From assembly GCF_003014485.1 (NCBI RefSeq), contig NZ_PYGA01000014.1:1-64000 (forward strand): 64,000 nucleotides of DNA. Reading direction: 5' to 3'. Below the pieces are notes generated by a model, which saw nothing but the letters and a program-made list of their open reading frames with translations, was not told the DNA's origin and did not search any database. The position numbers and the translations under genes were made by a program. Every line of letters begins with the position of its first letter. The stretch's first letter is position 1. Of the stretch, positions 835 through 48,745 are shown in pieces. Origin of the DNA: Murinocardiopsis flavida. Lineage in GTDB: Bacteria > Actinomycetota > Actinomycetes > Streptosporangiales > Streptosporangiaceae.

Positions 835-895
835 GATCTGCTCGTGACTGCTCGGATACCAATTGCGGCCATGGCGCCGAACGTCCGGGGTCTGT

Positions 896-914
896 GGCAC
901 ACTGGCAGTGTGCC
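896..914. promoter_or_regulatory. 19-base inverted repeat upstream of the cimA leader
   Basis: GGCACACTG (896-904) is repeated as its exact complement at 906-914 around one central base. It lies just before the leader ORF at 922. It could be an operator, or a hairpin ending minus-strand read-through. No regulator can be named from it. Confidence 0.45.
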
Positions 915-921
915 GTCCCAG

Positions 922-951
922 ATGATCATTATCGTGTGGCGCGCCGGCTGA
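922..951 (+). CDS. Ile/Val-rich leader peptide MIIIVWRAG ahead of cimA
   Basis: A nine-codon ORF reads ATG ATC ATT ATC GTG TGG CGC GCC GGC TGA. Three consecutive isoleucine codons and a valine codon directly after the start are what a ribosome-sensing leader for isoleucine-branch biosynthesis would contain. The ORF ends 25 bases before a hairpin with an eight-T tract (977-1004), which itself lies 41 bases before cimA. I see no convincing Shine-Dalgarno sequence, so a leaderless start is possible. The inference is transcription attenuation: charged tRNA-Ile/Val lets the ribosome finish and the terminator form, while starvation stalls it and permits cimA read-through. GCGCGC at 939-944 can pair with 968-973, a candidate alternative stem. 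Confidence 0.65.
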   Translation: MIIIVWRAG

Positions 952-976
952 CCATCGGACCTTGCCAGCGCGCTGA

Positions 977-1004
977 CCTCTCGTGTCCACGAGGGGTTTT
1001 TTTT
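977..1004 (+). terminator. Intrinsic terminator/attenuator in the cimA leader
   Basis: An 8-base stem (977-984 with 989-996, one G-T pair) with a 4-base loop is followed directly by eight Ts (997-1004). A canonical T tract is striking in a GC-rich genome. The site lies between the leader peptide and the cimA start, so it can act as an attenuator. It could instead end a small upstream transcript. Confidence 0.75.
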
Positions 1005-1045
1005 ATGGGCACTGGCAGACCATCCATTCCTCGGGAGTTCCGCTC

Positions 1046-48584: not shown

Positions 48585-48745
48585 TCGGGTGCCGCGCAAC
48601 GGCGGCGCCGACCGCCCTGTGTGAGCGAAGTCCGGTGCGAATCCGGCGCTGTCCCGCAACTGTGGATCCCGCTGAACAGCGGGACGAGCCAGGCCGCCTC
48701 CCACAGGGCGCCGACGCCAGCTGTCCTCGTGGGAAGGGCAGTCCG
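48585..48745 (+). ncRNA. Cobalamin riboswitch
   Basis: The conserved core is visible: AAGTCCGGTGCGAATCCGG followed by GCTGTCCCGCAACTGT (48628-48663), then GACGAGCCAGGCCGCC (48683-48698). These are the AdoCbl riboswitch consensus pieces, GGTGCGAATCC, CCCGCAACTGT and GAGCCAGG. It precedes btuF by about 60 bases, as expected for control by cobalamin, probably by hiding the btuF ribosome-binding site. Exact ends are approximate. Confidence 0.93.

Follow-up and report, generated by a model that had tools for sequence, protein, structure and literature searches.

The cimA locus and its leader

CimA makes a committed precursor of isoleucine and opens a threonine-independent route to this amino acid. 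How is its gene controlled in Murinocardiopsis flavida? In the 64,000-nt stretch of DNA analysed here (the window), an initial annotation had placed a nine-codon Ile/Val leader peptide and a terminator in front of cimA and had read this layout as classical ribosome-mediated attenuation. From a comparison of related leaders, which supports this reading well, we conclude that an Ile-responsive ribosome-mediated transcription attenuator probably controls cimA, with a probability of roughly 0.8.

The features of the region are listed in Table 1. The downstream gene is a citramalate synthase (631 bits against the TIGR00977 profile, cut-off 450), and its ATG at 1046 lies 41 nt from the T tract, as annotated. 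The hairpin and its perfect T8 were also found where they had been described, but the distance from the stop codon to the hairpin was 23 nt and not 25. In the window, the P1 pair 945:967 is a C-A mismatch, and T974, between P1 and P2, could wobble-pair with G938.

Table 1. Elements of the cimA upstream region in the window.
Feature	Position	Strand	Basis or remark
Putative promoter element TGTGGCACACT, extended −10, hexamer CACACT at 898–903	893..903	+	6 nt 5′ of the leader start codon
Leader ORF, GTG start, VPSQMIIIVWRAG then TGA	910..951	+	start kept in relatives; presumably leaderless
Regulatory codons ATC ATT ATC (Ile-Ile-Ile)	925..933	+	Ile-Ile in 146/153 Ile-type leaders
P1 helix, 5′ strand, overlapping the end of the leader ORF	939..948	+	covariation
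P1 helix, 3′ strand	964..973	+	covariation; 1 nt (T974) separates it from the terminator
P2 intrinsic terminator hairpin, stem 975–984/989–998, loop 985–988	975..998	+	covariation; −13.7 kcal/mol alone
T8 tract	997..1004	+	sequence
GGGAG, probable Shine-Dalgarno of cimA	1033..1037	+	sequence
cimA, citramalate synthase, 551 aa	1046..2701	+	TIGR00977 above cut-off

Upstream of this region lie a gene for a PIN-domain protein (132–530) and a likely Phd/YefM-type antitoxin gene (531–821; a weak match below the Pfam cut-off), both on the minus strand and divergent from cimA. Since these genes point away from it, cimA probably needs its own promoter in the intervening region. When the 166-nt region of the window was shuffled with its dinucleotide composition preserved, an Ile-Ile-Ile ORF alone turned up in 1 of 3000 shuffles, a strong terminator alone in 4, and the two together in none. 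Folding of the window sequence alone was unremarkable (z = −1.31; 17 of 200 shuffles were equally stable), and a strict sigma-70 scan of the window gave no promoter at the leader. A known Rfam element was ruled out as the identity of the leader, because no match there reached its gathering score (best, RF02837, 16.1 bits against a cut-off of 49.5). Elsewhere in the window, at 48631–48693, a cobalamin riboswitch was matched at 31.6 against a gathering score of 31.5, covering model positions 51–163 of 189.

The leader open reading frame

The frame from ATG 922 to TGA 949–951 does read MIIIVWRAG, as the initial annotation stated; its start, however, appears to lie further upstream. Of 82 distinct leaders, 80 have a start codon (ATG in 60, GTG in 20) 18 nt 5′ of the conserved ATT codon, a count made with a script that favoured this position whenever a start codon stood there. 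The corresponding codon of the window is GTG 910, in frame with ATG 922, giving a leader of 13 codons, MPSQMIIIVWRAG, rather than nine. The place of ATG 922, codon 5, is ATG in only 2 of the 80 leaders (the window and L020) and is otherwise mostly CTG, GCC, GTG or GTT, so that ATG 922 was rejected as the leader start.

The pattern TGYGBCWNRNT occurred within 35 nt 5′ of the start in 92 of 153 leaders, compared to 0.5 expected from shuffles, and −10-like hexamers peaked 6–10 nt 5′ of the leader start codon. A −10-like element so close to the start codon suggests that the transcript is leaderless and that the leader is translated from its 5′ end; in the window, the element at 893–903 would act as the promoter. 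No Shine-Dalgarno sequence was seen by eye before the window leader.

The 153 distinct Ile-type leaders comprise 79 near and 74 distant ones, identical leaders being counted once; 150 of them precede cimA (by tblastn in the near set, by tblastn or a visible cimA start in the distant set), L164 and L167 precede a small protein, and L188 is too short to tell. Ile was present in 153/153, Ile-Ile in 146/153 (absent from 7) and Ile-Ile-Ile in 39/153, and at least one ATT codon in 151/153; the near leaders were found by the motif ATTAT, which was absent from no locus, and a model trained on that set supplied the distant ones, so that the Ile and ATT counts of the distant leaders are biased upward. 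In the near set, ATT is rare in the aligned cimA genes (4 of 1327 Ile codons) and common in their leaders (97 of 182). Slow reading of the codon that senses Ile could account for this enrichment, as could a requirement that an A+T stretch be left unpaired. The Ile half of the annotated Ile/Val signal is thus conserved; Val was rejected, as codon 9 is Gly, Val, Ser or others among 64 leaders.

Five cimA leaders (L150, L154, L173, L202 and L206) have one lone Ile, with Thr as the next residue (LITH, CITT, CITP). Threonine is the other isoleucine precursor, and mixed Ile/Thr sensing is possible for these leaders. Further upstream, 55–67 nt 5′ of the leader start and at nearly fixed spacing, relatives such as L046, L065 and L089 carry a palindrome, TCTCGNATNNTGAGA, with at most 2 mismatches at 42 of 82 loci (mean best of shuffles, 5.2); the window lacks it (5 mismatches). 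It is perhaps an activator site. NdgR was considered as its regulator and rejected, the 15-bp motif described for it (PMC4340878) being unlike the palindrome.

Conservation and distribution

A leader with ATTAT and a terminator were found together at all 110 cimA loci compared, the window included (96 on the plus strand, 14 on the minus strand), so relatives do not lack the ORF and the hairpin. The 111 sources matching cimA consisted of the window and 110 loci, one of which (L001) was the window again and was dropped, leaving 110; the loci include genomes fetched from two collections, and the 96 plus-strand leaders contain 82 distinct ones. Carriers include Thermobifida, Nocardiopsis, Streptomonospora, Streptosporangium, Nonomuraea, Microbispora and Streptomyces. 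L059, whose terminator is seen at the locus but had been assigned wrongly, was dropped from the leader table. So were L162, for which a start codon was not found, and L178, in which the script detected no terminator; both have CimA downstream. Two scaffolds of a record titled Glycomyces fuscus (L035 and L037) carry a Nocardiopsis-like cimA with identical 400 nt upstream; this record is a mislabelled or mixed assembly.

From 48 of the 82 distinct leaders (alignment A1) we built a covariance model, R1, which matched 144 of 150 family genomes, representing 67 of 68 genera. Counted per genome, 141 of the 145 family genomes with cimA had an R1 match (the exceptions being G023, G035, G054 and G116), and 3 of the 5 without cimA matched weakly, presumably at other genes. 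In the class sample, R1 matched 205 of 394 genomes and 85 of 138 genera at E <= 0.01, a few of these matches lying at other genes, and cimA was present in 309 of the 394 at E <= 1e-100. At least 104 of these 309 genomes had no R1 match, indicating that the leader is not universal or has diverged. In the phylum sample, 20 of 396 genomes matched at E <= 0.001, five of them outside the class.

Two covarying helices

Compensatory changes were observed in two helices, P1 and the terminator P2. The pairing of GCGCGC at 939–944 with 968–973, which had been suggested as an alternative stem, proved to be the foot of the 10-position helix P1. In the 48 rows of A1, from which long-loop leaders (Streptomyces, some Nocardiopsis) and many near-identical ones were left out, 99.7% of cells pair and 68 cells show double changes, a number reached by 0 of 500 shuffles; when the structures were slid, pairing dropped to 33–55%. 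Two of five measures were not clearly above shuffles in A1, namely 4 pairs with double changes (reached by 54/500) and 10 further pair types (500/500). In A2, with 63 mostly distant rows, 13 of 20 pairs had double changes and 35 further types were seen, none of 500 shuffles reaching the observed value in any of the five measures; this alignment was fitted to R1, which favours covariation, and its rows include the window, two leuS leaders, an ilvB leader and, from L150, a short match on the reverse strand. Examples of compensation are GCGCAGCGG/CCGCTGCGC (L177) and GCGCATCGAC/GTCGATGCGC (L181).

In A2, P1 varies above its GCGC foot. The foot itself (939–942 and 970–973 in the window) is nearly invariant in Ile-type leaders while the rest of the helix covaries, so a constraint besides pairing may exist there.

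Comparison of the upstream regions of cimA in relatives, proposed as a check of the annotation, thus bore out the leader ORF, the Ile codons and the compensatory stem changes, and did not bear out Val.

Ribosome position and P1

Among the 153 leaders, the last Ile codon ends 3–9 nt 5′ of P1, most often 5 nt, with a single row at 11. The stop codon sits at the P1 foot or within the P1 5′ strand or loop. We set the ribosome edge 12 nt away from the first base of the A site. In 97% of the leaders, 8 or more P1 pairs then survive a stall at the first codon of the Ile run; with the ribosome at the stop codon, no more than 4 survive in 97%, and none in 123 leaders. The median folding energy of the exposed RNA is −19.2 kcal/mol for the stall and −2.0 kcal/mol for the stop. 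The corresponding stall and stop figures were 98% and 90% for an edge of 9 nt, and 42% and 100% for 15 nt; this result is partly built in, as P1 lies just 3′ of the Ile codons. Since a stall keeps P1 and a ribosome at the stop codon removes it, P1 would be a stalling-dependent helix, as expected of an antiterminator.

Leader codons follow the downstream gene

Eighty R1 matches in the class were fetched, picked for variety rather than at random from a source list without the weakest matches. cimA was the next gene in 73 of them (71 by tblastn; in the short loci L187 and L211 its start was visible). L157 and L174 precede leuS, L164 and L167 a small protein, and L188 is too short; L208 and L210 look like leuS by eye and are too short for a family hit. 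Together with L229, from outside the class, L157 and L174 are leuS leaders (gene by NCBIfam) that match R1 with Leu codons replacing Ile, the leuS-type leaders reading MRARLLLTGPR and similar.

Four of the five leaders from outside the class, whose genes are named from best NCBIfam hits of partial proteins except where stated, gave a similar picture: L229 (MAAHLLLIWPR) precedes leuS, L230 (MTTVRSASLLLVIVTRLR) ilvB and L231 (MSQNLLLT) leuA, and L232 resembles leuS, as judged from its leader. In the window genome itself, the leader L114, MVVSVQSNSLILVLGQRAAR, matches R1 weakly (23.3 bits), has ilvB confirmed downstream and, by eye, has P1 beside P2. Both ilvB leaders, L114 and L230, carry Leu/Val/Ile codons and the leuA leader L231 a Leu run. 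The choice of codons in a leader thus matches what the next gene makes; an untranslated structural RNA would leave this match unexplained.

Two unexpected cases were also seen. In two genomes of one other family, second Ile leaders (L164, MFALVIIM; L167, MFTPRIII) lie on the minus strand near 2532–2626, and both genomes carry a cimA leader elsewhere too (L163 and L168). The gene that follows them encodes a protein of 103–107 residues, ACT-like by eye; the L164 protein had no Pfam match and one unreliable NCBIfam hit (E 0.047), and the L167 protein had no NCBIfam hit. L233, outside the class, combines a Leu/Val leader, MGFKDRTGLLVVVT, with P1 and a terminator (match at its position 201) and precedes a hydrolase weakly related to biuret amidohydrolase, an unexpected gene for such a leader.

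Alternative readings

An antiterminator is expected to exclude the terminator. One reading is that isoleucine is sensed as we propose and that an ordinary base-sharing antiterminator, either the P1 loop pairing with the P2 shoulder or P1 borrowing the first bases of the terminator, escaped the tests. The Corynebacterium ilvB-II model (PMC10272879) and the C. glutamicum ilvBNC 'fast attenuator' (PMC11857589) are precedents for it, and the GTCT/GTTT end of P2 has a possible partner in the P1 loop, GGAC, whose conservation in A1 is 90% or more. Pairing of the P1 loop with the right shoulder of P2, though, was no better than in shuffles (mean z −0.10; 2 of 113 rows below 0.05). The gap between P1 and P2, with wobble pairs at the base of P1 and A-U pairs at the base of P2 included, was 0 in 134 of 153 leaders, 1 in 14, −1 in 3 and −2 in 2; the search for P1 allowed an overlap of up to 2 nt with P2, larger overlaps being covered by the extension tests. 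In these, contiguous outward extension of P1 took no core P2 base in 148 of 153 leaders (1 nt in 4, 3 nt in 1), and bulged extension into P2 was rarer than in shuffles (0.06 observed against 0.17; 153 leaders); neither was supported. Pairing of the P1 3′ tail with the P2 left arm showed a slight gain (−2.35 against −1.92 kcal/mol, 79 of 153 rows beating the shuffle mean; −2.43 against −1.93 kcal/mol and 24 of 34 among non-redundant rows), and a hairpin within the leader ORF was not supported (−3.88 against −3.76 kcal/mol in shuffles). Clear covariation between P1 and P2 was not found among 40 non-redundant rows (best cross pairs, z 2.7 and 2.3), and the best column pairs beyond P1 and P2, scoring up to 4.2, were mixed pairs in P2 or the 5′ flank, which we read as relatedness or composition. 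The pairing, extension and covariation tests thus yielded no conserved base-sharing antiterminator, and we regard this reading as rather unlikely, while giving it a serious chance.

It is improbable that regulation works mainly by a protein or metabolite binding P1/P2 instead of Ile-tRNA charging, the ORF being incidental. In its favour, CATTAT and GCGC are kept in the leaders at the nucleotide level, and changes of leader codons at S. coelicolor ilvB are reported to be without effect (PMC1262725), a result that by analogy counts against Ile stalling. Against it, codon identity tracks the product of the downstream gene; the frame, the stop position and the spacing from Ile to P1 are kept amid varying sequence; and P1 is variable above its foot. 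In a third reading, the terminator acts constitutively to insulate cimA from the divergent toxin-antitoxin genes, and the ORF is there by chance. This agrees with the orientation of the upstream genes and is nonetheless very improbable: the terminator lies downstream of a conserved promoter element and ORF, accompanies the leader at every cimA locus compared, and was never seen together with such an ORF in the shuffles.

Discussion

The leader, its Ile codons, both helices and their geometry stand on the comparison of relatives; the transcript start, the translation of the leader and the direction of the response are what we infer from them. That the leader and terminator are kept in many actinobacteria makes it very probable that they switch cimA on when isoleucine is short. 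In the Ile-responsive attenuator that we favour, transcription would begin at GTG 910 or beside it, and the leaderless start codon would then be bound by a ribosome. With sufficient Ile-tRNA, the ribosome would reach the stop codon at 949–951 and cover the P1 5′ strand, so that P1 is blocked, P2 closes and transcription stops near 1004. With scarce Ile-tRNA, it would stall at 925–933 with its leading edge at the P1 foot; P1 would form, P2 would fail and cimA would be made. The final step is a guess: having no linker and no shared core base with P2, P1 may sterically or by stacking block its full closure, in that abutting P1 and P2 might not enter the exit channel of the polymerase together, leaving the lowest P2 pairs open. 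We propose tentatively, giving it somewhat less than an even chance, that the leader at cimA and its relatives at leuS and ilvB all work in this way, without competing base pairs, and that such abutment antiterminators are widespread in actinobacteria.

Compared with attenuators of the trp/ilv type, the locus has, by its sequence features, a short 5′-proximal ORF with end-product codons and an intrinsic terminator between this ORF and the gene, as well as, on geometry alone and more weakly at the 15-nt edge, a helix dependent on the ribosome position. An antiterminator sharing a strand with the terminator was searched for and not found. As P1 abuts P2 and no base-sharing alternative was found, the leader would work like a trp/ilv attenuator without being a textbook member. 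The initial claim of classical ribosome-mediated attenuation accordingly holds for the conserved ORF, the Ile codons, the stop position, the covarying helices and the gene-matched codons, and fails for a mutually exclusive pairing; likewise, P1 is real and placed to form only when a ribosome stalls, and it shares no bases with the terminator that it was supposed to replace.

Several published systems, known to us from parts of the papers cited, resemble this arrangement. In M. tuberculosis ilvB1, a short ORF with branched-chain codons (LVVI) likewise precedes a terminator, and replacement of these codons by Ala abolishes induction (PMC13236596). In S. lividans, eight leader peptides are tabulated, including the leaderless IlvL and LeuL2 and none for cimA (PMC8079986); IlvL, MRTRILVLGKRVG, is like the window leader in being leaderless, in having 13 residues, in ending RVG (RAG in the window) and in being followed by a terminator. 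The actinobacterial ilvB leaders differ in carrying Ile, Leu and Val codons, whereas Ile is the only conserved signal of the cimA leader. The uORF attenuator of C. glutamicum ilvB has experimental support, and a three-hairpin model of ilvBNC, the 'fast attenuator', has the antiterminator adjoin the terminator with one trinucleotide common to both (PMC11857589). Its hairpins stand side by side, as here, and its leader peptide starts 1 nt from the transcript start; its antiterminator and terminator overlap at the boundary trinucleotide, in contrast to the cimA leaders, 148 of 153 of which share no core base. For Corynebacterium ilvB-II, a uORF over P1 and a P2 terminator with a U tract are likewise described, together with a proposed antiterminator between the P1 loop and the lower right of P2 (PMC10272879), a pairing without support in the cimA leaders. 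The part of PMC1262725 (Seliverstov 2005) consulted lists attenuators at trp, trpS, cys, ilvB, leuA, leuS and ileS, with cimA not among them. The Streptomyces leuS attenuator of that paper, compared from text and legend rather than structure, concerns another amino acid and another gene, and the leuS leaders L157, L174, L229 and probably L208 and L210 match R1.

The initial annotation knew of no such case for cimA, and our search of open-licence PMC papers, which returned no report of a cimA leader, agrees. As far as we could find within the open literature searched, cimA is thus a new target of such attenuation. The window genome had no hit above the cut-off for threonine ammonia-lyase TIGR01127, and a serine/threonine dehydratase in it passes the NF006094 cut-off. 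Because CimA opens a threonine-independent route, an Ile-sensing leader in front of its gene would be a direct end-product switch on that route. That the cassette also stands, with exchanged codons, before leuS and ilvB and, outside the class, before leuA amounts to a natural swap experiment, and helices that share no base make the mechanism of antitermination in actinobacteria directly testable.
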